The notes beneath the pieces are model-generated. The model had not been told where the DNA came from. It did no database searches and saw only the letters and a list, made by a program, of their open reading frames with translations. Made by a program: the position numbers and the translations under genes. Shown here one piece after another: positions 1,520-63,196 of a stretch of DNA of 64,000 nucleotides (position 1 is its first letter; each line of letters begins with the position of its first letter). Source of the stretch: Acorus gramineus (taxonomy: Eukaryota; Streptophyta; Magnoliopsida; Acorales; Acoraceae); assembly GCA_030737835.1 (NCBI GenBank), contig CM060853.1:8206134-8270133 (forward strand), given 5' to 3'.

Positions 1520-4500
1520 CTGTGTAACAATCACATTTAAGGGGAGCGTGCTGTAGCTACACCAGACCTGAACTAACAGCCTGCATTCAACAACCAAAAT
1601 ATTATCCACATGCTATTTTTTTCAATTAATTATACAGCTTATCATTTACTAGTGATTGCTGTCTATAGCAAGACATGGGAAACAATAACGTGTTTTCCTA
1701 GTCATTAGATAATAGAACCAAAAATTGTATAAATTAAACAACTAACTAAAAGGGAAAATGTAACAGAAAAAAGTTTTAGGACGTAATAAAGGAATACAAG
1801 ATTTCTTAAAACTAGATAACTAAAACTTGGCAATCAAGAATTCAGATAATAGGTAAATATCTTGCCCCGTGCACATATTTCAACTGACCTAAATCATAAT
1901 TTAATGTATGGGAGGTAACCTCATGCACATATTTCAATTTACCCATCACAATGTATTGAAAAAATCACCACCTGAATTCATTCAACCTACAAAAGGTAAC
2001 AGGGTCTAGTCCTTTTGTTGTAATTAATTGTATAAATTTTGTATGATTTGTTATTTTATTTAATTGTCAATAAAAATTTCACATTGTGTTCATACTGGTA
2101 CGGAAAGCTTTAATCATAATAATTTGTGTCCAGGATTTCTGCATAATGGGTATATCAATTCATTGATGAATGCATGCACTACGGAAAATCAGTCTAGATA
2201 TCTAACAATATTCTATTTGCACATTCTTTCTGAAAGCACCCAAAATCTCAATATCTGCTGTCTTGTTTCTTGTCTGTTGTAAGAGTTTATAGTGTAGATG
2301 AGAACAGCTTCAAAATTTGTTCAGGAAGTTAGTTTTGGGTGGGTTTTCAGTGGGAAAGAAATAAGTTTTCAGGTTCATTTCATTTCAAGTAACTACAGTT
2401 CTATAAGACCCTCATATTAGTTATTTGTAAGTTATGCACATCAATTTTAAGCATGAATACATGTGTGTTATTTTGTGTAGCAATCAAATAGAAAAAATCA
2501 AATTAAACCAAAGAAACTTACCCAGAAATCAAACGAATGGCAATCAATAAATGGTTCTTCAGGAGACAAGATCGCATATTCAACCCCCACTGGAAAAATG
2601 AAACATGGTTAGATCGTGAGTTTGTTGTGACTTTTTCCCAATAAAATATGTTTAGCATTATTGTGCATCTGAGCTTTCAATTTGAAAGGCCTTTGTTTCA
2701 ATTACTTCATAGTGGTTCAATGATAAGTAGTACATTATATCGCATCCATGTATGATGAAAGATGATATCCTGGGTATATCTGGATTTCCTCCTTGTAAGC
2801 TTCTAAATGGAATGACTTTCAGGCAGTCATGCCAATTTGGGTTATGATTTCTGTACAACATTGAAATTTATAACATATAATCAACTATTATGTGCGCAGT
2901 GGTTAGAAAATTGATAAATAGAAATCAATCATCGCAATTATCATTTCTAAACTCTGCTGCCAGTAGATGGGGAGGTTGTCTAAGGTGTAATACATATAAA
3001 GAGCACTTATGTTATCAACTATTGTATCAAGATATAAATTTGCAAATCTAATCATAAAGCACATTTAAACACTTCCTCGAAGTAGTTTACTTTATCGATC
3101 AAGTTTGCATTGCAATAGCATGTTTTAATTGCTCCAAAGAAATACGACCTGGAAATTGCATGGACTTACCAATGACCAGATGAAAGATGCCATTTCAAAA
3201 GCATTCTGCATACAAGAATAAAAGATAAGCAAAATGCAGCGGCAACAATATCATGAATTCATTGTATTTCCTAAGACAACCACAAGAACAATACCTGGAA
3301 TGATATAAAATGTATTAGCCATAACAGAATCTCTGGCCTTCGAAACCAGAAGAGACTATCACGTGGATTTAGTTGAGTGCCAACAAGTGGATCAGTTGTC
3401 TCCACAATTTCAAGAGCTAACTGGGCAACAACATGTTGAAGTTTGGTACCCACCAACATGGTGATCTATTATTTCATTCGAGGTAAACACAAACCAGGGG
3501 TTAAATTCAGTAACTTCTAGAAGTTCAAACAGTGATAGAGGATGACTAAGCCTTGACAACGTAGATGCATTTCAAAGTATTAACCAGAAATGTATCAGGA
3601 AGAAAACATGAGATACTTACAATGACAGGAATGAAAGACAACCAAAAATACATATTAAGACCTGGAAATAGAGACAATTTACGAAGAGTTGAGTCAAAAA
3701 ATTCATATGATACAAAACTGCATAAATGAAAGAAGCCATGGACAGATAGGCAAATTTACCATGAATATTTATGAATATGCAGAATATTGCATACCCCCAC
3801 AACGGCCAGCTGCAATATTAATGGATGTCAAGTTTCAACTCAGACTTTAGCAATACCATAATTAGGACAGAAAGAAAATTTAAGAGAGCTTGAGGAAACC
3901 AAATTTAGGCAATGGAATATTCAATAATATGATACAGATTCATCATAATTAAATTCTTCCTGGGAGTGGAGCCTATTCTATACATTATGACTACATTAGT
4001 AATAGTCCATTATTTCTGTATATAAACAACATTCTGTTTTGAATGGTTTAAACTTTTTTTTTATGAAACTTGAATAATTTAAAATACTCTGAAGTCCTCA
4101 TTTTTGTACGCATATTACAACAGATTGGATGTTTTGTGTCAAGATGTTACCTTGACATATCTGCTGTCCTGGCTGGAGTATATTTTGGATTTTTTTTCTT
4201 CTAATTATAGTTCTAGACTTCTAGGCAGCACCTAAAAGACTACTCAAGATGAAACGCGAAAAAGGTGCCCACTTCATCTACTCTTATCATTTGCTTAACA
4301 AACTTTGCACCCACGCAAAACTTATTGATTCTATGGAACAAAGGGAATATATGTAACTATGTATTCTAGTACTCTAACCCCCAGTCTCACAGCATCTTTA
4401 TGATTTGTTTAATGACTAAGGTTTAGCGATTTTAATCAGATTAGGGATTCTGATCTTAGTGAAACAACTTTGTTTATATGATGGGATAGGGATGTCTCAG

Positions 4501-7500
4501 AGTTTTTATAAAGGGAACTTAAGTGTTCTTTTTTCATGTCACTACAGAAAAGGCATGACAGGATTCCAAAATTTAGTAAAATTTCTTATATAACTAGTGA
4601 GATGCACATGCTTCTCACAATCCTGCTTAGAATTTTGATATTCAATTCACAAGTTTTGTCAGTACACTTTCAAACAGATATTTTATTTTTCTGAGGAATT
4701 CTGGAATAAAAACATTCTCCATCTCAGGGAAAAGTTACAATTCACTTAACTATGGTAAATAAACCAAACAGCTAACAAGTAGCTCAAACCGAATTCATGC
4801 AGAGCATGTTTGGCTCCTCTTATTTGATAAATGAAACAAGCTCAAACCTTCAGTTGAAGTAAGCATGAGAAACCAGTGGTTGGCTTGACTTGGCACAGTC
4901 AAACTTGAAAGTGAAATAGATGCCCCACAAATCTACAACTAAGTTGTTGCCTATCGAATTAAATTTAAAGAATATAATAAAATCATGTTCTCTATTGCTT
5001 TCATAAACATTTTTTCCATCTCATTCTCATATAACAATCCAATCATCATTCACCCTCTCATAAGTTTAAAACTTCTAAATTCTGTTTGACATTCAGTCAC
5101 TTGGTAGGAATTTAAAAAAAAAAAGATTACTGAATCATCACTGAAGATGCAAACTTGTTTTAGACCAACCAACGTGTTTGGAAACTAAATTATTTAGTTA
5201 ACTTACATCAAAATCCGAGGCTGATTAAATTTTGTTCACGCTTGTCTCATTTGGTAAGTGTTGAGATCAAGCTCAATTAGCTACTGAGGCTTTCCTTGTT
5301 GCACCCAAGCTCACATTTATGTGTGGTCTTCTAACAATTTTGCAAATTTTATTATTAAACAATCTGCAGCCAAACTATGATGTCAATATATAATCCAATA
5401 TAATTTCCTACCAAGCTCAATATAGCAATATATGTAATAAATTTTAGAATTAACCCATCTAGAAAGTAGAAACTTAACATCTGAATATATGTTCTCACAA
5501 TAAACTCATCATCGCCTGGCAGTATTCATTGTTTTAGCTTTCGTTAATGCATTCATAGTGATTCAAATAATGATATCACGGTTTGACTTCATAGGAGGCA
5601 CTAATAAAAACTCAAAGAAAGATAAAATATATCATTTATTCACCAAGTGTATTTTTATTTAATTAAAAGAAATATGAATTTTATTAGTGGGAAGGTCTTA
5701 TATACTTTAAAATTATCGTATTTACTATTTTTATTCAATTTTTGAAAATATTTATTCTCTAAGGCAGGGACCAACTCAATTTTGTTAAATATTAGCGATG
5801 ACTTCACTCATTCCCCTGAAGACCCTGAATCTGGCTAATCTGCTCATTAACCGCATCTATGGAGCTACTCGTTTTATGTGATTCATTCATCGCCAAACAA
5901 AACTTCACTGGGGACACCATTGCCCAAATCCCAAACACATGAGCACCAAACTCAAACATGAGAGTTCATGTGAATAACTTGCACTTTAAAAAAAATAGTC
6001 AAATTCAGGTGTACTCATACGGTCATACCTGATTCCAACTATTCCATGAAACTCATCCTCCATGCTCCGGACAATATATTTATGGAAATCATATGATGGT
6101 GGCAGTTTATGATTCTGAATAATAAAAATACAGTATCAGTGGATAGTTGTATAGGCACTAAAACAGTGGATGACAGTAACATGATTTTTTACGCTCTTTT
6201 GATCAGTAAAAAAAAAAATGGGGAAAGGGTACTAAATTGAGATATACAGTTATATTTTCAGTTAAAATTTCCCTGAGATTTCAAGGATCTACAGAGTTTG
6301 GCATGATCTTCTTAATATGAGCTTGAAGTCTGCAACTCTCTGCAACTCTTTGGTACAGTTTCTTTGAGAACATACATCAAAAAATGTAGCTCTTGAAGAG
6401 GTTCAACATCAGAGATCCAAACTATTACCGTTTGATAAATGAACCAGACTATAGTGTCCTTTATTTCTGAATGGCTCCCATTCACATAACATATGATATC
6501 ATGCCAATGTCGGATCGATATTAAGTTATAAAAATTTGGAATTCATGTTGCCCATATCATTTCACACCATATAGTGCAATGGATAATCAGCCACTATGGA
6601 TTGGGATACGACTTTCCTCTTTTTTCTCATTTTCTTGTGAGGTAATTAATCAGGCAAAATAAATTAACTCGCAAAACAAAGTCCAATAGCATGCTCAAAG
6701 TCAGAGAATAAATGAAACATTTCAAAAATAAAAGCAGTCATGGAAGCTTTGGCCAAGGTTACATGATCTCACTGTTCCATTTGGAATCCAGTATCTGATC
6801 TAACCCAAACTGTAAGTTCCGTTATTAATGATGCCAGCAGTAGGAATGATGAACAGTAGTGCACGTTATGGGTCCTGCTTCTTCCTCCAACAAAATAATG
6901 ATGGAACAAGTCAAAGGCTATGACATCCTATGATTAACATTCCATGTTACAAAAGAGATTCCATGTATATGAGTAAAGGATACATCCAATGGTACCGTCT
7001 TTGACATAAATTTTCATCCATAAACACAAATTACTATTATTAATTTCAGTTAATACTTCAGAGAGAAAAAAAAAAAAAAATAGTTACAATTCAACAAGGT
7101 CATGAAAGTCATTTATATTTAGGAAACCGAATACTGACCGTGATAAAACCCAAACGTATGGTCAGGTAGTCTGATTTTGCTATAGATCCCTTAAATTGGT
7201 GCACAAAACAAAGCTGCAGATCATATTGTGTTAACAATTCATCAATAGTGAAGAATGAATGGACCTATTTCACTATACAGTACTCACAAACCAATTGAGA
7301 CTTAATGGATACACAACCAGAAAAGGTATCCAGTGCTATAGAAACAAATAAGAAACAAGTTATATTATTCCTCTAATATTTGTGTTTGTGTATATCACAT
7401 GCAACAGAAATGAGCATATACAGCACAATAGTATAATAGTTAACCCCCCCCCCCCCCCCAACAAACACCCACACAAAAATAAAAGAGTGTAAAGCTAATT

Positions 7501-10500
7501 TAAAACATAAGATCTCACCATCCAAATGAGAATCTTGTTCTTGCTCCATGGATGAGATGTATGATGAAAAACAAATGTTGATTGCCTCCTCATTGTTGCA
7601 TTCCTCCTGGCTAATAGGATGAAGCAAAATAAACATCAACACGCCTACTCAAAGAACCATTCAAAATTAATATCAAAGATGGAAGTGGCATTGTGATCTA
7701 TTAAACATTATGTTGAAAATCTCAAATATTTACATGATATTTCTTGCAGACAAATATGCACACTCCTGGTATAGATCTAAATAGAAGACATAAAGAGAAC
7801 TAAACTTTGTAAGGTTAATCCAGTAGCCCTCAAACAACATCGAGCTTGGGCTTGGACAGTGGCTTGATCAAGCTCACATATTTTCCTATCAGTGAAGCTT
7901 GAACTTGATTTAGAGCTCAGTTGTTAAACAAGCTGAACTCAAACAATAATAGGCTCGGTTTGATTAGGTTCAGTAAGCATGCACGTATTAATTTAAACTG
8001 TTACAAGAGTGTCTTGGGCACAAACTCATATATTCAACTGGGAAAGTGTTAGGGGCAGTCATTCCTGCAGGCCCTTTTGCAGTCACTAGCATTTTTTTAA
8101 TGAAGTACATATGTTCAATATATATATATATAATCATATGATTAGAGTGCATGCATTTTTGCATTCTTCTACTGTAGTATATACTTGGTTAGGGGAACAT
8201 GAAAATGCAGGAATCACCAGGTGTATCGGCACTATTTCCTTTGGGCATTCCAACAAACACACAAATAAGTATCCTATAAGCAAAATGTTTTGGCCCACCA
8301 CTATTTAAGTGGCAGGCATATATAAGGCCTAAATACTCCTTGGCAATGGAAAACTCTAAACATACATCATAAACCCATATAATAGTTATGTGTCACTGAA
8401 AGATAAGAATAGGATTGATAATGGAACAAACAGTATATCAACTAGGAGGCCATTTGATAAAACACGACACGCTTTACTAAATTATAGAAAAATATGATCA
8501 CTCACAATGAACTTTAACTTCACAAGGGAAGCTCTAACGGTATAGCTAATCATATAGTTGGCTGCTCACCTTGCAAGTCCCCACTGGGCTGTTGGGGGGT
8601 CTGGTTCTCCCATTTCCTCCAGCCATACACCTGCAAAATAGTCGCAACAAATATATCTCCCCAATCAAAATTCTATCCCTAGACGTAACAAAATAATAGG
8701 GACATCGAATAAAAAACACCTTAATCATAGCAAGAACTACCGTTGCACAACTGTAAGAAACATGAGTGATCCCGAGAAGGAACAAGAAGCGGTTCAACTG
8801 CTCCAACCCCTGGTAGGAAACAAACGGCTCGTAACCCTGTAAAAGATCATCAACAAAATGATCATTCCAACTCCGTGTTCTATGAGATCGAAACAATGAA
8901 ATCCACCAAACAGTCATTCTACCTCGCCACAATTGTGCGGCAATATGTTGAACAGCCTCCGAGCATTCTCGGAAACAGTGTCATTCGCCCAACCCTCATC
9001 GCCATCAGCGGAACCGTAATCATCCTCCGAGCAGATGTAGAAACGGCTGGTGAAGAGTGATGATGGCACACAAATTTCTGACACCCACCTTGCCGTCTGC
9101 CCCAGCATCAATGACACGATCCCAAGCAACATGAGCTCTGAATCATTCCACAAACCCCGAAAACATCACATTGCGCCAAACTGCTGTGAGATGTCTTACA
9201 TTTTAGCATCAAAGGACCTATCGTCGAAGGCCTGAATTTTTGTTTCTGGATAGCTTATCCAGATATAAGATAATTTTACAAAGATAGAGGAGAATTAGAT
9301 GTTTTTCAATTTGATTGCTATTTTTATTGGTTTTCATAAATTTGTCTTTTGTGCTTGTTTTATTGTAATTTAGCAAAGTTTTTGGGGGGACAAGTAGGAA
9401 CAAACTATACGTTATCAGGGTTTATTCTAACTTGTCAAGATATACCTCTTACAGTTTATCCATACTAAATAAATGTATTTCTCAAATATTAAACCCAATC
9501 TTCTCTTATCTACCCTCTTATCCGCGAAAATAAGTGTGTTTTTTAGTAGGGTAACAGTTGTAAGGGATTGCATTGAGAAAAATGGGTGATGGTGAAGAGA
9601 GAAATCAATAAGGAATTGACTCCTACTCCATTGTATGCAAATTTGCCTACCCACATCCACATCTTGTTCTGTCTTTTCCTTTGCTTGGATTTGTCTGTCT
9701 TTCCACATTGTTCCGTGGATGTTCAGATCTAACCCCAAGCCCCCTTTTGGATAGTGGAATAGGGGAGGAATATGGGAGAATAAGCCCAAAAAGTTGTTTA
9801 TGTGCAAGGAATGGGTATGTATAGCTATAACAGAATATTTATTGGTATTTGATGTCCCCCCTCAAATTGTTTTATTCCACCAAATTCATTTTACTGGTAT
9901 AACAGGGGCTCATATGTCAAATCACTTATCATCACCTCATATAAATCAGGGGGTCTACATGTCAAATCAATTTTTTACCTTTTATAAATTCTTATCTACA
10001 ATTTATTTAAGGTCAATCAAACAACAAAAATTTCATTATTATGTTTCACAATAAGAATAATTAAAAACACAATCAAATAAAAAATGATTTATTCCTTATT
10101 TATCTTGAAATATATATCTATCCCGGAATAGCTTATGTCACTACCGAAATGGCGGTTAAGAGGCGACGTTGCATCAACAAAAACGAATACAGAGAAACAA
10201 AGATAAAAAAAGGGAAAATGTTACACTCGGTCATTTTTACGGTTCAGACCACACATGTTTTCATTTTTTTAAAATAGTAAGCATCATCTAATGAGATATA
10301 TGCTTTCATAAAAAGTGTATATTGCTCTAATCCGAGTTGAATGAACCCATTTTCAATAAGCGTAAGAAAACATTTAAGGTAAATAAGACTGCATTTTAGA
10401 CTATAAAAAAAAACTGAGTGTAACAGCGCTCAATTAAAAACACCGACCGCCGTACCTTCTCTGATCTTCTCCAGTGACGCGAAGAGTGCCTTCTTCTTCG

Positions 10501-17300: not shown

Positions 17301-20300
17301 AAGTGTAGCTATCACATCATCTGCTTCATAATTGTCAACCTTAACAACCTGCAGTCATATAGTTTTAGCGCTGGTCCTGTGGAAAATTGGACACACTAAG
17401 AAAGTGCATATGTTTATCAAGTTCATACTTGAAACATGACTAATTTATATGCTTAAAGAATTATAATAATAAAAATTGCTAATGAGGAGATTCTGAAAAG
17501 CGTTTTCCATAATGCTTTATGCTAACCAATGTAATGAAGACCAATAAAAATATAAGTTCATCCTTAATATGGATTAATTATATTTTGGATGAATTAAAAC
17601 TAATCAAAACCATTCAATAGACTAAAATTTACTTTTTCAGACATTAATTTTGATAATTTAATCAAGGGCTGCACATGAAACTAACTTTTTGGCTGCAATG
17701 TGCAAAGCCAAAACCGCATTCAGTAATATAGCAACATTTACAAATACTGCCCTCTGTGCTCTGCTTCAGAATGAACAATTGTTCTTTTCGAACTAATATA
17801 TATCCCAACCTTCTTCCATGAGTTCAAGGCTAGCTTTCAAATCCTTCTCTGCTATTTCACACTAGGTTTTTTGAAGAAAGTATAAGAGCAATCTTATTAT
17901 TAAAAGATACCCCAAACCAAAGGAGGCGAGAGATTTCTGTACAATGACAAATGAAAGAAGCTAAAGCAAGGAAAGTAGATATGTAATTAGTTGGACCAGG
18001 AGTCCCCGTCACGTAAGAGACCAATTGTTACCCCCCAAACTAATGGTTGCCCATCCCATAAGAGACCGATTTACACTAGTCAATATTTTAACTTCTACAA
18101 ATCCATGTGTTACATGGATTTCCTCCTCATTTGAATGAGAACTCAAAAAGGCTTGCAATTACTAGTGACATTTTTTAAATAGATCACAAAATTTTGATGA
18201 TCATTAATCCATTCAGCCATAATAAAAATGAATTAGTTCATTCCTTGTTTTATGGAAATTAGTTCACTCCTTTTTAATTAAAATAAAAGAAAATCGTTGA
18301 GCCTTTTACATCTCTCTATGAAACTAACATTGCACTTTACCAAATGAAGAAAATAACCAAAATTCAACTAGAGTCTAGTGACAAAATGCAGTTCAGCTGG
18401 ATTAAAGGAAAAATATTCAATAAATGTAGTTCAGTTCAATCTCTATTCAAGAAGAAGCACAGCCAAGAGAATTAAAGATATGAAGACATACTGGCACATT
18501 GCATTTCCTTAGGACATCTATGATCTGTAACTCAGCAATCTGTGGACTTCCACCACCAAGGCCCCTTGAAAATGTTTTGGAAGGAGGCACCAGTATTTTT
18601 CTCCTGTGTGCTTTATATGAAGGCAATAACTGTCTTCGGAATTCATTTGCCTTATCTCCATCAAGAACCTGAGAATTTTCAATTCAATAGAAGCGAAAAA
18701 AATATGAGAAAAAAATTTCACAACTGCAAATGAATATTCTCTGCAGGCTTGATCACTTCACCAAAAGCCTGCTTCTTTAACACATAAATAAATTTTTTTT
18801 TTGGCATAAAGACTAACAAACCAGTCTTAACCAAACCATTTTGGATAATTTTCTTTTAATAAAGGAAACTATCATCCCAAAGTAGTTGCATTCCCGTTAA
18901 GAAAAAATGACAGTCGTGAAATCAATGCAATATCTAATCCACCAAATTCATCACTTAGAGAAGCCACACTCCACCAATATACTTCAAAGTAAATATTATA
19001 TGTTTTCTCAAAATCGAGCTTACAAATCAACTCATTCCTTTTGTCCTTCTTATTCCCATAGTCACAAATTCGGGATTCGGCAATAATTCGATAGGGGTTC
19101 AGTTCGGCTCTGTTCGGATTGTTTGGGGAAGGATTCATAAAAAAATACGGAAAAATTCAGGGATCTAAAAACAGTCCATGTTGTATCTACAAAACATGAT
19201 ATACAGGCATATCAACCAAAGTAGAACATCTACTAAACTTAAGTACACGACATGTTAGAAAGGTTCATAAACAAAAGCAACCAAACTTAAGTTGACTATT
19301 ACACATTAAAGCCAAAAAACAAACATAATTAAAGTTGAAAGATGATCATATAGACTCAGAAAATGTTACTCTTAATTTCCTGAATTGAAAAAAGGTAAAG
19401 TGAAAAAAAGTTGTGAGAACCATGACCAATTCATCATATCCAAGTCTAACAAAAACACACATCCATATGGCAAATACAAAATATTATCAAGTTTTAAATT
19501 CTTCGTAAATCCTAGACTCCAATTCCACTCCAAGTTATCCTTCTTCTTCTCTTTCATGTTCACCATCAACATCTAGCAATGCATCTTCTTCAACTTCATT
19601 GAATGCGGTAATATGGTCCAAATAAATTGATTTCACCACTGAATCTGAATTCTTTAAAAGAAACTTTTGTAAATGAATTTACAAATCTTATGGATCTTCT
19701 ACAAGGTGTGGAGTTAAAACAGGAAGATGAGGATGTGGTAAAATGGAAATTGGCACCTCTTCTTGGGTTCTCGGTGAAAACCCTTTATCGGAAGATCAAC
19801 AAAGTATCTTCTCCAATCCTGACTGCTAACAACCATATCCTTATTTGGAGTTCTCTAGCGCCTCTGAAAATCAGAGCTTTTATGTGGCTTCTCTCCATAA
19901 ATAAAGTGCTAACCAAGGTTAATAGGGCAAAATGGGTTCCCAACAGTGATACTTCATGTGTGCTATGTGGTGGTGCCGAGGAGGATAGGGAACATTTGTT
20001 CTTTACATGTCCATTCGTCTTATCGATTTGGGGATTGGTTGGGAAAGCGATTGGTTCGTCATGTAATTTCCTTAATATTGATGAAATGTGGGAGTTATTC
20101 CGTCATAGAAAGAAAAAAGGGGACCGTAGCAATATGGCTAAATTTCAGTTATTCATTCCTCATGCGGTTTGTTGGAGTATTTGGTTGATGCGAAATGAGT
20201 GTCTATTTCAAAGGAAGAGGGTGTACGTGGAAAACACTTGGGCGCATATTTCATTCTTGCTCATGGATTGGGTGAAGATGATCCTACAAGAAGATAATCC

Positions 20301-23300
20301 TACCACAGTTATGGGTCCATTTTGGTTCACAAGGAAGTGATTCAATTTATCTTCTCATTACTACGATTTGGGATTTCCTCAAATCGCACAATTTGTAACT
20401 ATTTGGAGATCCCTTGTCTCCTTTGTTCGGGGGCTTTTAATTAATAAAAGTTCCTATCCTTATTCAAAAAAAAAAACTTTTGTAAATGAAGGCTCACCCT
20501 CACATACACTAGAACATTTCAGAGTTTGTGGTTCCAATCTATTTCTTTTTTTGGTGTGTGCTGTATCAAATGCACTCCAATTCCTCTTGCAAGCTGAAGC
20601 AATGCATGGATGAGAGATACGGAATATTAGAAACTTGAATTAGCAAATAACTAAATATAAAATTTGATGTTAATTGAAATAAAACTTACTTCGATATTTG
20701 ACACAGAGAGTCATTTTTGCAAATGATGAGAATATATTGGAATCCATATCCATGTAATCCACTAGTTAACTGCTGAATGTTTCCTTTCCACAAAATGACA
20801 CCCGGCGCAAACATTTTTAGAAGAACCCAAAAAAAGGAGACGGGAAATCTCCATACAAATTAAATAAAAAAAAGGGAAAATACAAGAAATTATAAGGGAG
20901 CCAAGAATGTATTATCCCCTTCCCCAAACGTCACCCAAAATAGAGCCCGGCGAAGGCTACTCTAAAATGAATTTGACCCAATCCAATAGCATTGAAGAAA
21001 TCCCCATCCAAGCGTTTTCCCAATATACTCTTTTGTGCATGAAGATTTCTTCGTTACGTGCTAGCCCAATATTACATCATGTTTCACCAATTTATCATAA
21101 TGCAAATGTGGATTTAGGAGAGTGGCAATTACATGCATAGGATGGTGCAAAAGGATCCATCTTCTATCAAAGATAGTCCAATAGGGTTCATACTTAGCTA
21201 TCTCTCCACTGAAATATTTGGATATTGCTTCCTTTGCACGGTCCATGGCTTAAAAAATATATCCAAAAGTACCTCCCTTAAAATCTACCATTCTCAACAC
21301 TTTTATTAGAGGTTCCATGATATCTATAACTTCTCTTCCATCCTCCCAAAACAAATTATCTAGTATTAGTTGGGTGACTTCTCTTCCCTCTGTCATCCTT
21401 GCTTGTGATAAAGACCTCCATTTGTTTGAAGCAACCATGAATCTAGGTTACTCTAGTTTAATTATAGATTCCAACATAATAAAATTGGTTGCAAAACGAG
21501 TAGCCCACAGGTCTCTTGATTTCTCTCCCCTTTGTATGACTTCTCATACAATTGAAAACATGTGTGAACCTGTATATAACTTTTTTTTATTTCTCTAGCT
21601 TTCCTCACTGTCTCCCTTACTTTCTCAATTTCTTTATCAGTGTCTTCAAATAACAAGTCAATGCAATAAGCTGCACAATTTAACTTGAACACATGTGGCA
21701 TTCTATCTTCTAGAAGAGCCCACGCCACATTGTAACTTGAAGCATTATCTGTGATAATTTGCACCACATTTTCTCTACCTACATACTCATCAGTCCCCCT
21801 TCTAACAAAATCGGCAATAAACCTTCTATCCTTCACTTTCCTTATGTAGATTCAGAGCATAAGAAGACAGTGCCTTTAGATGATGATGCTAACAAGTTGA
21901 GGTGATTCGTGCTCCTCATATCTCCTCATCCATCGGACATGATCGTGCAACCCGTTTCTGTTCAAGATTCTTTTATTTCCTTAACATAATAGGCTAATTT
22001 CTCCTTAAGTGTATGCAATAGTGATGTCCTTATTGTCTCACTACTAGGAGGAACATAACCTAGTCCATGTTCTGCAACTTCTTTCGTGGCTCCAATAAAT
22101 TTTGGAGTCCTTGCTACATTGAATGCAATGTTGTTAGTACCGAAGTGTTTTACAATGGCAAAGTCAACATTTGTTTTTTTGGTCCTTCGTAGCTGAGAAT
22201 ACAAAGTGATCAGGTGTACTCTTCTTTCTCCATCAGTACCACCACTACCACTGCCACCTTGCTCTACAAACGTTGAATCAACTGAAGAAAGTTGATTCCC
22301 AACCCCAAACCTTGTAGATGATGCTGCTCTTTATGTTTCAAGGATATTTTTCTTTTTTTTTTCCAATCTCTACACATAAATCTCTAACTTGATTCGGAAA
22401 TGTTAAGTGCGGCATCATCTATAGGGTCTGGGGTTAAGACTCAACTTTCTTCAGTTGATTCAACGTTTGTAGAGCAAGGTGGCAGTGGTAGTGGTGGTAC
22501 TGATGGAGAAAGAAGAGTACACCAGACCACTCTATATTCTCTGCTACAAAAGACCGAAAAAGCAAATGTTGATTTGGCCATTGCAAAGCACTTTGTTACT
22601 AACAACATTGCATTCAACGTAGCAAGGACCCCGGAATTTATTGAAACCATCAAAGAAGTTGCAGAACATGGACCAGGTTATGCTCCTCTAGTAGTGAGAC
22701 AATAAGGACATCATTATTGTGTACACTTAAGGAGAAAGCAGTCAATTACGTGAAGGAAATAAATGAATCTTGAACAAAAACGGGTTAAGCAGTCATGTCC
22801 GATGGATGAAGAGATATGAGCAGGAATCACCTCAACCTGTTAGCATCATCATCTGAAGGCATTGTCTTCATAAGAGAGTGAAAGATGGAAGGCTTCTTGC
22901 CGATTTTATTACGAGGGGATTGATGAGCATGTAGGAAGAGAAAATGTGGTGCAGATTATCACTGATAATGCTTCAAATTACAATGTGACGGGGGCTCTTA
23001 TGGAAGATAGAATGCCACATGTGTTCAAGTTAAATTGTGTAGCTTATTGCATTGACTTGTTATTTGAAGACACTGATAAAGAAATTGAGAAAGTAAGGGA
23101 GAGAGTGAGGACGGCTAGAGAAACAAAAGAATTATATACAGGTTCACAAATGTTTTGACTTGTATGACAAGTCATACAAAGGGGAGAGAAATCAAGAGAC
23201 CTGTGGTCACTCATTTTGCAATCAATTATATTATGTTGGAATCTATAATTAAACTAGAGCAACCTCTAAGATCATGGTTGCTTCAAATGAATAGAGGTCT

Positions 23301-26300
23301 TTATCACAAACAAGGACGATAATACAAGATAATTTGTTTTGGGAAGGAAAGTCACCCAACTAATACAAGATAATTTGTTTTGGGAGGATGGAAGAGAGGT
23401 TATAAAGGTCCTGGAACCTCTAATAAAAGTGTTGAGAATGATAGATTCTGAGGGAGGTACTTTTGGATATATTTTTTAAATCATGGAGCGTGCAAAGGAA
23501 GCAATATCCAAATATTTCACTGGAAAGATAGGTAAGTATGAACCCTATTGGACTATTCTTGATAGAAGATGGGTCCTTTTGCACCATCCTATGCATGCAA
23601 TTGTCGCTCTCCTAAATCAGCATTTGTATTATGACAAATTGGTGAAACATGATGAAGAGACAGATAAGGGGATTGTTGAAGTTCTTCTAAAAATATTTGC
23701 GCCGAATGACATTCATGGAAAAGAAACATTCAGCAATCAACTAGTGGATTACATGGATATGGATTCCAATATATCTCATCATTTGCAAAAATGAAGCCAT
23801 TTTATTTGAAGCCATTTTATTTGGACCATATTAACAACAAAATGACTATCCGTGTCAAACATCCAAGTAAGCTTTAGTTCAATTAACAACAAAAGTTTAT
23901 ATTTAGTTATTTGCTAATCCAAGTTTCTAATATTCCATATGTTATGTGAACTTTTGAAGGTTTATGGTGGAAGGTAGTTGTTGCTTCTGATAAGTATGGA
24001 GAACTTAGAAGAGTTGCTATGAGGCTTCTCTCTCAACCATGTAGTGTTTCACCTTGCAAGAGGAATTGGAGTGCATTTGATACAGCACACACCAAAAAAA
24101 GAAATAGATTGGAACCACAAACTCTGAATGATCTTGTGTATGTGAGGGTGAACCTTCACTTACAAAAGTTTCTTTTCAAGAATTCAGATTCAGTGGTGAA
24201 GCCATTTTATTTGGACCATATTACTGCATTCAATGAAGTTGAAGAAGATGCATTGCTTGATGTTGATGGTGAACATGAAAGAGAAGAAGAAAGAGAACTT
24301 GGAGTGGAATTGGAGTCTCTTGTCTATGAAGAAATTAAAACTTGATAATATTTTGTAATTGCCATATGGACACGTTTTTTTTGTTATACTTGGATATGGT
24401 GAATTGGTCATGGTTCTCACAACTTTTTTTCACTTTACCTTTCTTAGGAGGAACATATTCTGATGTATTTCAGTGTCTATATGATCATTTTCCATTTTTT
24501 TTTTTTTTTTGCTTTAATGTGTAATAGTCAACTTAACTTTGGTACTTATGTTTAGTAGATGTTCTACTTTGGTTGTGCAGGATATACCTTATGCTTGTAT
24601 ATCAGATTCTGTGGATACATGGATTGTTTTTAGATCCCTGAATTTCTTCAAATTTTTTTCCAAATCCTTCCATGAATAATCCGAACCAAACCAAACTCCT
24701 ACCAAATTATTGTCGAATCCTGAATTTGTAACTATGGGTGAGGCTCCAAGAGCTTGAGAGGGAGAGTCGGGAACTGCCGGAGATGGAGAGGGAGGGTCTT
24801 TACTTCGTCAACCGCTCAATCGAACTACCAGAGATGGAGCCATGGAGGGAGAGAGAGGAACCATTCAGGGGTTAGGGCAGAGACCCATTCATGGGTTTTT
24901 TTTTTTCTAATATACTTGTCATTCCCGAAAATGCCCTTGAATTTTCTGAATGATACCCGATCCGTCTCAAATTCACCGAACAATAACTTCGCCAATTTGT
25001 TCGGCAAAGGCTCCATTCGCCAGATTTGGCTGAATATGTGCTTATCATTCGGCTTATTTGTGACTATTGTTATACCCACCACACACTCGCGAGCCACCAA
25101 GAAACCATCCAAAAGCAATTGACTGCCTGTGGATAATCCTTCCTCTACCCAAATACCTCTCTAAGGTAGCCATTGGAAACATGTTTGAAAAACAGTTTTT
25201 CACTTAAAGTCGCTTTTGAAATTAGACGAATCATGCATTTATAGAATTCATGAAAAGCTAATTTTTCAATGTTTATAATTAAGGTAGAGTTTGAAAATGA
25301 GTTTGAACAACTTTTAGAGATTCAGCTCACGCAAGTATCATATTTAAACCAAACTCATTTTTGCACGCCCTCAATGATCCCAAGCTTTTGAAGAAATCTT
25401 TTTAACTTTTCAGGAATCTAACTAAAGTATGCTTCCTAAAAGCCTAAAAGCTACATTCAAAAGTTGCTTTGAGTGAAAAATTGTTTTCCAAACTCATTTC
25501 CAAATGTAACCTAAAGCTACTTTGTAGCTTCCTTAATACGGCTATGACCATTTGGACTGTTTCGTAAAAAGCATGATCATCCAAACAAATTTCCAAATGC
25601 CACCTAAAAGTTGATTATCGAGAACTTTGGAGATGATTTTATAAGCAACATTGAGGAGACCATTCGAATGATAATCCCCAGTTTCCTCCACGTCGACCTT
25701 CCTTGAGATCAAACTAAGGCACCGTTTGGTTGCACGTTTGGGGCAGCTTTTGCTTTTTGAAAAGCTGAAAAGTTAAAATCGTATAGCCAAACGGGGCAGC
25801 TTTATTCAGAATCGGAAGCTGGATTCCTTTTAATTTTTCCTTCAAAATCCGTGTTTTGAAAAGCTCAAAAACAACGTTTTTTGGTCGGAATCGATTTTTT
25901 GAATTGAAAAGCAACTTTCTCTGCCAAACATCAACTGCTTTCAAATATTGATTCATGAATTAAAAAAAAACATCCCAATAAAAATCAAGGTCTAAAATCA
26001 TATTAAAAAGCAGCTTTATTCCAAAAGCTACTTTTCAATATGTGTTTCCAAACGGACCTTAAGGCATGCACACCCATGTCTTCTTTCCAGAACTACATTA
26101 TATGATTGGGCGTTGTTAAACACATTCCTTTTTACATCCCCGAATGCAGTCTCATATACCTTGTTAACCCATCCAATGAAGTATATAGCTTATTAATTTT
26201 TAATATTACATTTGAATCCATTTAATTCGAAACAGAGTGTATACATTTTTCATCAAAACATATAGCATTGTCTAACTGACTGCATATGGGGTAATCCCTA

Positions 26301-26690
26301 ACATTATCCTGTATAATTCACCATCCAATAACCCTAAATTTGAGATAGAAGCCATTGAAACCCTCCATAGAAATGCATTCAGAGAAAAAGAGAAGAACGA
26401 AGAAGACTCACGGCGATGACGGGGTCGCGGAGGGAGACTTGGGAGAAGAAGAGGGAGAGCCAGTGAGCGAATGAGCGGAGGCTGGGCCTCCTCGGCCTCC
26501 CGCCGTTGTTACTGTTGTTGTTGTTGCCTCCGTCGTCGGAAAACCTCTTGGTCGCGGTGGTCGATCGGAACCCTCGACGGACGGGAGAAGAAGCTTTTGA
26601 GGGGGTGAAGGCGATGGTTCTTGAAGGGCGAAGGCGGATTGGGAGGGGAAGGGAAGTCGGAATGGCTGCCCAAACAAGGGTTTCGGCCAT
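14329..26690 (-). CDS. 5'-3' exonuclease family protein (PIN/FEN-like), organelle-type
   Basis: Nuclease of the bacterial Pol I 5'-exonuclease/FEN type, close to Arabidopsis At1g34380 as I remember it. Exons: 26690-26412, 18668-18492, 17348-17114, 14770-14548, 14458-14329; 1044 nt, 347 aa, frame continuous. Residues 1-60 are Ala/Ser/Arg-rich like a transit peptide, then comes SLRSFAHWLSLFFSQVSLRD. Core: VLDGDKANEFRRQLLPSYKA (94-113), NYEADDVIATL with the metal-binding acidic pair at 162-163, GSPDKDFKQL with Asp185/Asp187, and the helix-hairpin-helix GDEADGVPGIQHL (235-). The C-terminus is RDVDVHLEEDW...SNFFKTLDG. Oddities: intron 1 is 7743 bp and filled with a hAT complex, and the first acidic motif expected before SLRSF (LDV-type) is absent, replaced by an Asn/Gly/Arg-rich run. 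The start codon is the first in-frame Met followed by the transit-like segment. Confidence 0.9.
15943..16130 (-). pseudogene. Coding-like relic in exonuclease intron 3
   Basis: On the minus strand one frame reads PFHTGQGLLDPNIINWLGEP, then FGGHGAPPKLEDIPKAKQNI, then TAA. Immediately upstream the same frame (DSFGTGNQTQKP) is closed by a TAG. Composition is protein-like, unlike the surrounding AT-rich intron, but I cannot assign a family. Most likely the 3' end of a retrocopy or a captured gene fragment. Confidence 0.35.
19678..20473 (+). mobile_element. 5'-truncated LINE insertion with target-site duplication
   Basis: About 796 bp with a poly-A end at 20466-20476. It is flanked by the 17-bp direct repeat aaacttttgtaaatgaa at 19661-19677 and 20474-20490. 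The homologous right hAT arm has one copy of this site (inverted, near 24165), so the empty site is visible. The insert keeps an open frame to 20340 encoding the reverse-transcriptase zinc-binding tail: FMWLLSINKVLTKVNRAKW, then SCVLCGGAEEDREHLFFTCP, then IPHAVCWSIWLMRNECLFQR. No RT catalytic domain is present. Confidence 0.93.
20828..21078 (-). mobile_element. Second LINE 3' fragment, opposite orientation
   Basis: Compared with the right arm, the left arm here has about 250 bp replacing a short stretch near its KHDEET-like sequence. Read on the minus strand it gives RNEEIFMHKRVYWENAWMG, then LLDWVKFIL and a stop, matching the tail of the LINE at 19678-20473 (RNECLFQRKRVYVENTW... LLMDWVKMIL). 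No clear poly-A or target duplication; probably inserted with a small deletion. Confidence 0.65.
22385..24736 (+). pseudogene. hAT transposase relic, right arm
   Basis: Same order of fragments as the left arm but on the plus strand: ANVDLAIAKHFVTNNIAFNVA (22565), VQIITDNASNYNVTGAL (22950), EPYWTILDRRWVLLHHPMHA (23540), then the hAT dimerisation-type end SPCKRNWSAFDTAHTKKRNR (24050), LNDLVYVRVNLHLQKF and an acidic tail ending at 24345. In-frame TGA at 22771-22773 and 22807-22809 corresponds to the stops of the left arm. The BED domain is missing. The 3' terminus is at 24736. Confidence 0.85.
24737..25069 (-). mobile_element. hAT 5'-terminal fragment
   Basis: Reading on the minus strand from 25069, CAATAGTCACAAATAAGCCG resembles the hAT terminus at 19057, followed by a purine/pyrimidine-biased leader up to copy B. 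Interpreted as the remaining 5' end of the element whose body is the left arm. Confidence 0.45.
25163..25513. mobile_element. Foldback MITE, AAAGCT-rich
   Basis: The ends GGTAGCCATTGGAAACATG and CATTTCCAAATGTAACCT are inverted versions of each other; the interior is rich in AAAGCT/AGCTTTT words. Related foldbacks lie at about 41250-41430 and 57295-57510. Confidence 0.5.
25715..26063. mobile_element. Foldback MITE with CCGTTTGG ends
   Basis: Left end AAGGCACCGTTTGGTTGC and right end CCAAACGGACCTTAAGGC are inverted. A TAA trinucleotide abuts both ends, as in Tourist/PIF elements, though the exact borders are uncertain. It lies in exonuclease intron 1, just upstream of exon 1 in genomic order. 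Confidence 0.5.
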
Positions 26691-60247: not shown

Positions 60248-63029
60248 TTACCAACCCTTCAGCTCAAACTGCAAAATGGCATCTCTTGCCTGGATCACCT
60301 GGCTTAGAATACCATCAACTTCGATATTCCGTTTCAACAATTCCTCGTCAATGTTATCGATATTCACTTCTCCCATCGTCACAGCTTCCTCGCCAATCTT
60401 GATTTGTTTGTTGTTTTCTTCCCTGCGACCCGGCTCAATCTCAGCCAGCTTCAGAGCTTCAACTCGCGAGAACAACTCATCCAACCGCAACGAGAGATCC
60501 TCATCTGAGACCCCCAAGTGCTTGAGAAAGGCAAGCAAGGCATCAGAGGCGGGTCTGAAACTCAGCCAGTCTTCGATTGGGCGTTTTGAGAGCTCACTCT
60601 TGAAGTCATTCAAGACTGTGTTTGCAGAAAGAACTGTCCATTTCTTTATTAGGGCTATCGTCCATGAATCAGATCCTCTGAGAGACTCGGAACAAGTTGC
60701 TATTGTCTTTGCAGGTATGGCCCATGATAATCCGCCTCCGCTTTGAACACATATTGAGGATTCAGGTTCGGTTGCAAGTACAAGCTGTTTTTGTAGATTT
60801 AATTCAGGTACCCCATTTTCTACTGCTGCAGTTGAGGTGGAAGCCTCCGTGGAGGATTCGGATGCTCTGATGGCTGCCACAAGTAAGCCAAAATCAATGT
60901 TTGTTCTAAAAGCTTGTCAACTTAGCGGATCTGCATGTATTCATCTCCGTATCTAAAAATTATTCATATTTGATATTCGACATATATTCAAAAATGTGTA
61001 TCCAATTCGAACATTCAGATTTGAACTCAGATTCGGATAATATTCTAAATATCTGAAACATCTAAACGGATGCAAATATAATTCAAATATCTGATTATCC
61101 GATATGGAAATTTCCAAATTATGTATAAAAATACAACCCCCCTCTAAAAACATAAATTTATAAGCATATACATAAATCTTTATATGGTTAAACATGTTAA
61201 AAATAACCAACAGCTCAGACTTATCATAAAATATAAGTATATTAATACAATCAATAACAATATATAACCTTGCATCAGATATGAATATTTTTCGGATTGA
61301 ATATAGTCATATCCATATCCACTCCGAAATATTTTGGAGACATAATTTATTTCAGATGTGGATTCGGATGAAATATAGATATATTTGGATAATTGATAGG
61401 CTTAGTTTGTTCAAGAGTACCATATACAAATTAAGCAATAATATAATCTCACCGTTGAATTTCATAGCCTTGTTGACCCGTTTCCGTGACCTTGTTCTAT
61501 CGTTCACATCGTTGCCAATGTTGATACTAGAACTTCGCTTCTTCTCATTTACTTGATCGCAGTAATTACTCGTGGAAGGATCGGGTGGTTGACGATCTTG
61601 TAAAGTACGAGATGTGTCCAATTGGAGAGATGCATGAGAGTCTTCGCCTTCAGGCTGAGTTGTCATTGCATGACATAATCCCGATGCATCTGGAAGTGCC
61701 CCATTGTTCAAGTGAATTAGACTACTCCATCTCCTCTCCCAATCTTCTATTTCGACTTTAAACTTGTCCATCCAACTCTTTTTCCGCACCCCTTGTGTTG
61801 TACTTCTGCATTTATTTGCATACCCTCTGGCCAGTGGATCTGAGTATTGATATCCAAATTGCTTGTAGCACTCATTTGGTAGGTGATGTTCGACAATCTC
61901 AAAACAAATCAAAGCTGTTTGGGCCCTTCCCAGTGCAATGGATGAACAGAGATGATCAGGCACAACTATCACCCTATTCTTGTAAGGTTCATATATGATC
62001 TGTTTTAAACATTGAAGAACTGTGAATTATGATTGTTGTTAATCTGTCTATATCATATAATAGAATAAAAGAAGGGGAAAAAATTCGAGTAAATCAAACC
62101 TCATCCTCCCGCATCTCGCTTATTTTCTTGACCCACTCATCCAGTCTTTGTTTGTGATGAACATCCTTCAAGGCTTTGCCACATTTTTCATGCCAAGCCA
62201 AACAAAGTGGTATTTCCACATTACCCGTAAAAACCACGCTATTCGGTATTGCAATAGGAAAATGCTCATATGCCCAAAGCTGCAAAATATATTCAACCAA
62301 CATTTTCAATATAAAACTAATATGTTTCAGATATACATGTAGATAAGAGTATATATGACTTACTTGTAAAAATAGCAGGCTGCCACCAATATTAGTCTTC
62401 GGCTTTTTAAATCTTTTTTTGTTAACCTGGATATCGCTTGTGAATTCAGCAAGCTCCCTGAACAAATAAGCTAAAGCAGCAGCTCCCCAGGCATATGTAC
62501 CTGCTTTGTCGAAATCCTCAAGAAGATAGAGATACCTATATGAGACCTTAAGCCCAGATGTCGAGAAAATCGTGCATCCAAGCAAATACAATAGGTATGC
62601 ACGTGTGTGCATTTCAACCGTGTTCTCCGGAGCAAACTCTTCCAAATTTTCAAACCTTTTCCTCAATTCAACTAGATGAAAGGATCCTTGTAACAGAAGG
62701 TCTTTTGTGTCTCCAAAATATTTTTGACACAGTCTTTCGGCATCCCCGTGATCGACATCGCATACAACTGGAACACCATCAGCAGGTAGCCCATATATAT
62801 AAGTCATATCTTCCAACGACGGGAAAAACTTACGATCACCGATTACAAACAGATTCCTTTCTTTGTCAAAAAACGAAAGTAGAGCGGTGATGAATGGTCT
62901 GTCAATTACTGTATCAGGGATTCTGGCAAGCATGTCTAACTTGGTGCGCTTCAGATAAGCTTCCTGTGCATCAGTAAGCTTCCATTTATGTAACATTGCC
63001 CTATGCTCGTTAGTCTTGATAAGCATCAT
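60248..63029 (-). CDS. Plant mobile domain (PMD / MAIN-like) protein
   Basis: Member of the aminotransferase-like plant mobile domain family; PMD proteins are related to transposon-encoded proteins, and host members (MAIN, MAIL) act in the nucleus in silencing and meristem maintenance. Exons: 63029-62364, 62279-62100, 61999-61453, 60873-60248; 2019 nt, 672 aa, frame continuous. PMD features: LHKWKLTDAQEAYLKRTKLD, PFITALLSFFDKERN, FFPSLEDMTYIYGLPADGVP, RAYLLYLLGCTIFSTSG, TYAWGAAALAYLFRELAEF, LLFLQLWAYEHFPIAIP, and RVIVVPDHLCSSIALGR. After residue 282 comes a Ser/Arg-rich linker with RTRSRKRVNK, then a helical, Glu-rich C-terminus ending QARDAILQFELKGW. The stop TAA overlaps a donor-like GTAAGC, so a further downstream exon cannot be excluded. 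Confidence 0.85.
60930..61400. repeat. GATATTCGGAT-rich foldback in the last PMD intron
   Basis: Dense, inverted and scattered ATCCG/CGGAT and GATATT words on both sides of an AT-rich centre (for example CAGATTCGGATAATATTC and TGTGGATTCGGATG). This looks like the subterminal repeats of a non-autonomous DNA transposon. Similar words occur at 47780-47880. Confidence 0.45.
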
Positions 63030-63196
63030 GGTTTATGGGAAATCTATTTGAAGTCTGTTTGTCCTTTTGCCTTCTTTTTAATATGGAATCCTGCCCCATC
63101 ACCACAATTTAAAATTCAGTGATTCAATTTAACCTCCCAGAAAGTGTCTTAAACATGTTCAGCAAGGATTTTCAAAGTATCAAATGTATTAAAAAA

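Follow-up and report, generated by a model that had tools for sequence, protein, structure and literature searches.

The question raised by this locus is how two copies of one hAT transposase came to stand head to head inside an intron, and whether the resulting palindrome acts as a natural hairpin RNA locus that silences its own transposon family. The window, that is the whole stretch of Acorus gramineus DNA that was analysed (64,000 nucleotides; GCA_030737835.1, contig CM060853.1, positions 8,206,134 to 8,270,133), contains a 5'-3' exonuclease gene, whose later exons encode the Pfam domains PF02739 and PF01367. Intron 1 of this host gene is 7743 nt long, from the donor GTGAGT at 26411 to the acceptor CAG ending at 18669, and the junction of exon 1 with exon 2 keeps the frame. 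As originally predicted, the inverted hAT-transposase arms (19057-24736) lie inside this intron (26411-18669, minus strand). The features of the locus are the following:

18669 to 26411, minus strand: intron 1 of the host gene, with GT-AG ends and an in-frame exon join
19049 to 19056, no strand: putative left target-site duplication CTTATTCC, 6/8 to the right one
19057 to 25068, minus strand (sense of the transposase): compound hAT element, the outer unit, with a terminus at both ends that is the same in other copies of this genome
19057 to 22396, minus strand: L copy with the loop, hAT sequence that begins shortly before the DUF659 region and ends at the 3' terminus
19662 to 20474, plus strand: LINE truncated at its 5' end, taken together with one copy of its target duplication (zf-RVT PF13966, E 6e-20)
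22340 to 22396, minus strand: loop, collinear with the L copy and extending it in the 5' direction (own-genome query and alignment)
22397 to 24736, plus strand: R copy, the 3' part of the hAT a second time, inverted
24737 to 25068, minus strand: 5' end of the outer hAT copy, resembling a 5' UTR and matching the 5' ends of young copies
25069 to 25076, no strand: putative right target-site duplication GTTATACC, 6/8 to the left one

Repeat finding in the window linked L with R in 22 of the 25 inverted pairs listed (of 39), and blastn gave an inverted match of 2636 bp at 85.7% with three more collinear pieces. With both methods, collinear inverted matches span 19055-24738. Long stretches of the arms had been noticed to read identically; in a gapped global alignment, 1908 of 2142 aligned columns are identical (89.1%), a count that omits one doubtful block (L 20827-21074). 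The 234 differences consist of 153 transitions and 81 transversions (K2P 0.119), with 24 gaps, and the two arms have 555 15-mers in common, against at most 2 in 200 single-base shuffles. DUF659 (PF04937) is found in L at 21462-21842 on the minus strand (E 8e-18) and in R at 22874-23158 (E 6e-16), and R also contains the hAT dimerisation domain (PF05699) at 23950-24345 (E 1e-12). Palindromes being a known class of assembly artefact, a foldback chimera of the assembly was considered as an origin of this structure. However, the arms differ at 234 of the 2142 columns and carry private insertions, one of them with a target duplication. This divergence and these insertions rule out a chimera, whose probability we regard as practically nil, and they bear out the palindrome as a real one.

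A search of the whole genome (398.6 Mb, 137 contigs) with a 483-bp query gave 13 matches: two are the arms themselves, and the remaining 11 fall at nine further loci, each of which was fetched. Six of these loci (L009-L014) form a young group; five of them are complete (3.63-3.75 kb) and L013 is cut by a contig end. The young copies hold the family sequence without inversion, and their ends are CATAGTCACAAAT or close to it. Judged by eye, the target duplications of the five complete copies match at 8/8 in three, at 7/8 in one and are absent from one. An uninterrupted frame of 571-577 aa is present in three of the six young copies; in L011, whose frame has 577 aa, residues 9-44 form a BED zinc finger. 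Viral contigs and prokaryote genomes gave no relatives of the family, which is to be expected of a plant element. The centre of the palindrome, first put at about 45 bp, measures 57 bp (22340-22396). Used as a query, this loop matches all nine fetched loci, directly upstream of their L-arm homology. Hence, L simply continues into the loop and runs to about 22394-22396, its last 1-2 bases (22395-22396) being uncertain. In L014 coordinates, the L copy starts at about 1217 and the R copy at about 1272.

The family ends also define the outer limits of the element. Short terminal inverted repeats CATAGTCACAAAT are common to the window element and to the other copies of the family in this genome: the terminus CATAGTCACAAAT lies at 19057, with a near-match at 25056-25068. 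The 12-base core of the left end recurs inverted at 25056-25067, with 2 exact matches in 64 kb where 0.03 are expected. Outside these ends, whose positions are fixed by the family, CTTATTCC and GTTATACC form a putative target duplication of only 6/8, a level (at least 6/8) that random 8-mers of the window reach with a chance of 0.0078. They replace an outer duplication considered earlier, TTATTCCC/TTATACCC, whose 7/8 match was the best over 25 free offsets (null 0.016). When the left end is paired with the outer end of the R arm, the best target duplication is only 4/8. A genome search for an empty site found the left flank only once in this genome.

Furthermore, the region 24737-25068 has a counterpart at the 5' end of each of the six young copies and in none of the three divergent loci; it stops at about family coordinate 396. 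The original prediction described two truncated copies placed head to head. The inverted copies stand, but they belong to a single compound element, which keeps its 5' end at 24737-25068. The positions 19057 and 24736 were correctly named as outer ends of the arms and prove to coincide with the family's transposon terminus: the R arm stops at an exact terminus, directly adjoining the element's own 5' region (junction 24736/24737). This 5' region is identical to L011 at 240 of 326 aligned bases (74%), compared with about 90% for the arms, and could thus derive from another relative; the young copies, too, differ most from one another in this part (2.1-7.0%). Both arms begin downstream of the BED zinc finger and hold stops, and an open transposase frame is absent. 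Judged from its sequence, the element is a non-functional relic of a hAT of the DUF659/BED type, without a working transposase.

How the second copy arose can be addressed through the kinship of the arms. L and R form a clade with an ultrafast bootstrap of 100 in two column sets. At sites where at least two outgroups agree, 12 derived states are shared by L and R, against 4 by R and the young copies and 3 by L and the young copies; with at least one outgroup, the counts are 13, 4 and 4 (1177 columns dropped as ambiguous). Moreover, three in-frame premature stops are common to both arms and absent from all six young copies; at the second of these three sites, the divergent locus L016 is likewise interrupted by a stop. 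When the genome was queried again, the 42 matches listed contained no closer sibling of R than the six young copies (89%) and L (88%), the next being at 80%. Since the arms are sisters, share these stops and have no closer sibling among the matches listed, L and R are most likely duplicates of an already dead copy, made in situ. If two elements of the family had inserted independently, head to head, and a later deletion had joined them, this would agree with the dispersal of the family in this genome. This scenario is nevertheless improbable: the arms are sisters that share three stops missing from the six young copies, no third copy of their lineage occurs among the matches listed, a single pair of target-like flanks brackets the whole element, and R adjoins the element's own 5' region.

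We therefore consider it probable that a hAT element inserted in the intron and that the relic results from a subsequent reverse self-insertion followed by loss of the palindrome centre. In this sequence of events, a hAT element would first have entered the intron, as shown by the family ends, with a target duplication that would since have decayed to 6/8. It would have lost its coding ability before the duplication, the three stops being present in both arms. A sister copy would then have inserted in reverse into the element's own 5' region, as the exact terminus at 24736 suggests, with a transposase supplied in trans from elsewhere. Next, the centre of the palindrome would have been lost. 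The present anatomy, in which the copies start near the same point and the BED-finger region is gone, is consistent with such a loss, and the inner target duplication of R would be invisible because its other side was deleted. Finally, the arms would have drifted without codon-position bias and L would have taken up a LINE. The main rival is template switching during replication, or a gap repair that was aborted, by which the 3' half would have been copied in inverted orientation. Such an event would likewise yield sister arms, nearly equal starts and a loop collinear with one arm, and it draws weak support from the two bases past the R terminus (GG), which equal the L flank. However, chance alone would give this GG match once in 16 cases, and template switching would hit the exact transposon terminus at the outer end of R only by chance; we hold it to be unlikely.

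Self-insertion and central loss would have been followed by a long decay. Mismatches between the arms show no codon-position bias (32/379, 42/380 and 36/380), and the 3' non-coding part differs at 59 of 376 positions. At plant substitution rates of 5e-9 to 1.3e-8, the arms would have been decaying apart for about 5 to 12 million years. The mismatches are clustered (0 of 1000 permutations in a variance test and 14 of 1000 for the longest run; with trimming, 24 and 110 of 2000, respectively), which makes conversion between L and R possible, a process also able to spread the stops. The LINE in L is flanked by a 16-bp target duplication, AACTTTTGTAAATGAA, at 19662-19677 and 20475-20490, and R is uninterrupted at the matching position. 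Therefore, the LINE entered L after the duplication of the arms. L also carries a second, LINE-like block, and these private insertions make the arms unequal in length. Furthermore, C/T differences between the arms affect 23 of 61 CG, 26 of 96 CHG and 104 of 718 CHH sites (P 3e-5 for CG and 0.003 for CHG, both versus CHH). This CG and CHG enrichment reads as the footprint of past TE-type methylation. Given this deamination footprint, the present effect of the element is most likely local, the intron probably being a silenced, methylated block that is spliced out by the host.

A transcript through the element would form an imperfect hairpin of about 2.3 kb, whether it started at the host promoter or, as is conceivable, at the hAT 5' end that is still present. 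When the minus-strand RNA of 19058-25069 is folded by itself, its energy is -3407 kcal/mol, compared with -1385 to -1422 for three rough shuffles, made by dealing non-overlapping two-base blocks so that dinucleotides are only roughly preserved. In this fold, L pairs with 1986 of the 2342 bases of the R arm (73, 220 and 211 in the shuffles), and 35 helices run for at least 21 bp without a break (1220 bp in total). The expectation that the intron RNA should fold into a long duplex thus agrees with the model, which predicts a long imperfect hairpin. Such a hairpin is a plausible Dicer-like substrate if the RNA is made and is long-lived enough.

The further proposal, that this hairpin silences the hAT family in trans, fares less well. 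Exact matches to any of the six young copies are few: they involve 267 of the 2507 21-nt windows of L and 302 of the 2320 of R, and a single shuffle of R gave none. For the three divergent loci, the exact 21-mer matches number 41 to 62. The arms have 353 21-mers in common, 64 of which occur in all five complete young copies. Hence, siRNAs could reach the family in part. However, over the whole element the young copies are 0.38-1.95% apart (median 1.27%), and in the columns common to both arms they are 0.1-0.6% apart, versus 11.3% between the arms there. They differ by 0-2.3% in the 3' non-coding part and by 2.1-7.0% in the first 480 bp; their coding part was probably kept similar by selection, so that their spread is less recent than the coding part alone suggests. 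Even so, young copies 0.4-2.0% apart spread after arms that differ by 11.3% had split. The hairpin would thus not have been enough to halt the family, except in the case that it gave no RNA itself or was missing from the lineage where the copies spread. Some siRNA output from the arms is possible, without the family being kept silent by it. The young copies thus offer a natural test of hairpin silencing, one that points to no lasting effect, and a palindrome alone appears to be weak ground for inferring RNA silencing.

In its layout, the element resembles Mu killer of maize, which dominantly silences active elements (PMC3440606). As in Mu killer, an inverted duplication of a transposase gene is found in a transcribed place (here inferred from the host gene), but Mu killer derives from MuDR and not from a hAT. 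Dominant silencing is indirectly contradicted for the window element by the spread of the young copies. Very doubtful, in our view, is a Mu killer-like locus in which intron dsRNA would be processed into Dicer-like siRNAs that silence the hAT family in trans. The length of the predicted hairpin, the host-gene transcription that must pass through it, the 64 of 353 arm-shared 21-mers found in all five complete young copies and the similar layout of Mu killer (PMC3440606) speak for such a locus. They are opposed by the later spread of the young copies, by the LINE and the other insertion that break the duplex and by the distance of about 10% between the arms and the young copies; moreover, for Mu killer itself the silencing RNA is reported not to have been read-through from the flanking gene (PMC3440606). 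A broader idea, a long shot in our judgement, is that reverse self-insertion of a dead hAT with loss of the centre is a route from cut-and-paste transposons to Mu killer-like loci, and that this element still gives rise, from host-driven intron RNA, to siRNAs that fit conserved stretches of the living family and partly damp it.

Inverted repeats derived from transposons, in or near genes, are also known from Arabidopsis: of 885 in one accession, 634 are no more than 3 kb away from a gene, and some 486 of the latter give rise to 24-nt siRNAs (PMC12595863). That study names particularly MITEs (PMC12595863), whereas the window element has arms of more than 2 kb with 11% divergence. Sirtrons, which are intronic siRNA hairpins, resemble it in having a hairpin inside an intron of a host gene (PMC5545994). 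A literature search by title and beginning of abstract, with partial coverage, found no hAT case of such a kind. The kind is ordinary and already known; the history of this element is unusually readable. The origin of an inverted transposon repeat can be followed stepwise here, from insertion and death to probable self-insertion, central loss and a later LINE. The maize double-Ds is a Ds inserted in reverse into an identical Ds. Like the window element, it is a hAT with a second copy reversed inside the first, both from one source, and the window element has the corresponding feature of a reversed second copy that ends exactly at its terminus inside the first (24736/24737). Unlike double-Ds, the window element is old and decayed, its centre is deleted and its inner target duplication is not visible. 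Its formation would also resemble the autointegration described for other transposons (PMC3952818).

Other inverted hAT pairs were sought in the same genome. The nine fetched loci all lack an inverted copy of their own hAT body and, among the 42 matches of the 3' end listed (40 of 61 candidates scored; by eye), the only opposite-strand pair within 10 kb is that of the window. A second inverted pair belongs to a more distant hAT family (67-68% to that of the window), on contig C32 at 4704028 (minus strand) and 4707839 (plus strand). It consists of a complete element (L041 4999-8171, termini CATAGTAACAAAG) placed head to head with an inverted copy that lacks both ends, and 2955 of the 3021 columns are the same in both arms (97.8%). 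Four single copies of this second family were fetched and showed no inverted hAT body in self-comparison. The geometry of the C32 pair is unlike that of the window element. This pair shows that inverted hAT pairs recur in the A. gramineus genome with differing geometry, and its closer arms would make it the better candidate for small RNAs.

A second inverted hAT pair in the genome of the same plant is a better hairpin candidate than the pair in the window:

Positions 2091-7933 of locus L041 (C32:4701300-4711200): second inverted hAT pair, head-to-head

This pair belongs to a hAT family more distant than that of the window, and one inverted match of 5871 bp spans its centre. The two arms are identical at 2955 of the 3021 aligned columns and both contain a 485-aa frame. 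The right-hand copy is a complete element whose terminal repeats lie at 4999 and 8159-8171. An older hAT relative (L016) is flanked by inverted matches (250-1942 and 5853-7668, 86-89% identity) and is perhaps another nested or paired element.

In the window, each arm carries changes of its own. The block at 20835-21074 in the left arm, which has no counterpart in the right arm and stands in place of about 27 bp that the right arm has, shows inverted likeness to the 3' end of the inserted LINE at 20404-20440 (repeat pair I23). Short duplications private to the right arm (23320-23385 and 23792-23833) include a 25-bp unit, 41 bp apart, and TGAAGCCATTTTATTT repeats. By eye, a further LINE-like 3' tail with poly-A lies in intron 2 of the same exonuclease gene (17870-17990, minus strand).

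The six younger copies of the window's hAT family (L009-L014) differ from one another by 0-0.9% in their main coding part, whereas their first 480 bp diverge by 2.1-7.0%. This contrast suggests either that the coding part is under constraint or that 5' ends were exchanged. Both hAT ends were also matched, about 1.1-1.2 kb apart, at four loci found by own-genome search:

C2:6689882-6691112, paired hAT-end matches
C2:6481876-6483104, paired hAT-end matches
C10:7940533-7941725, paired hAT-end matches
C3:1477200-1478296, paired hAT-end matches

These are probably non-autonomous elements that arose by internal deletion, either within the window's hAT family or within a related one. Elsewhere, the window carries an open frame of a protein type related to transposons:

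62094-63032, minus strand, Plant mobile domain (PF10536, E 5e-31)
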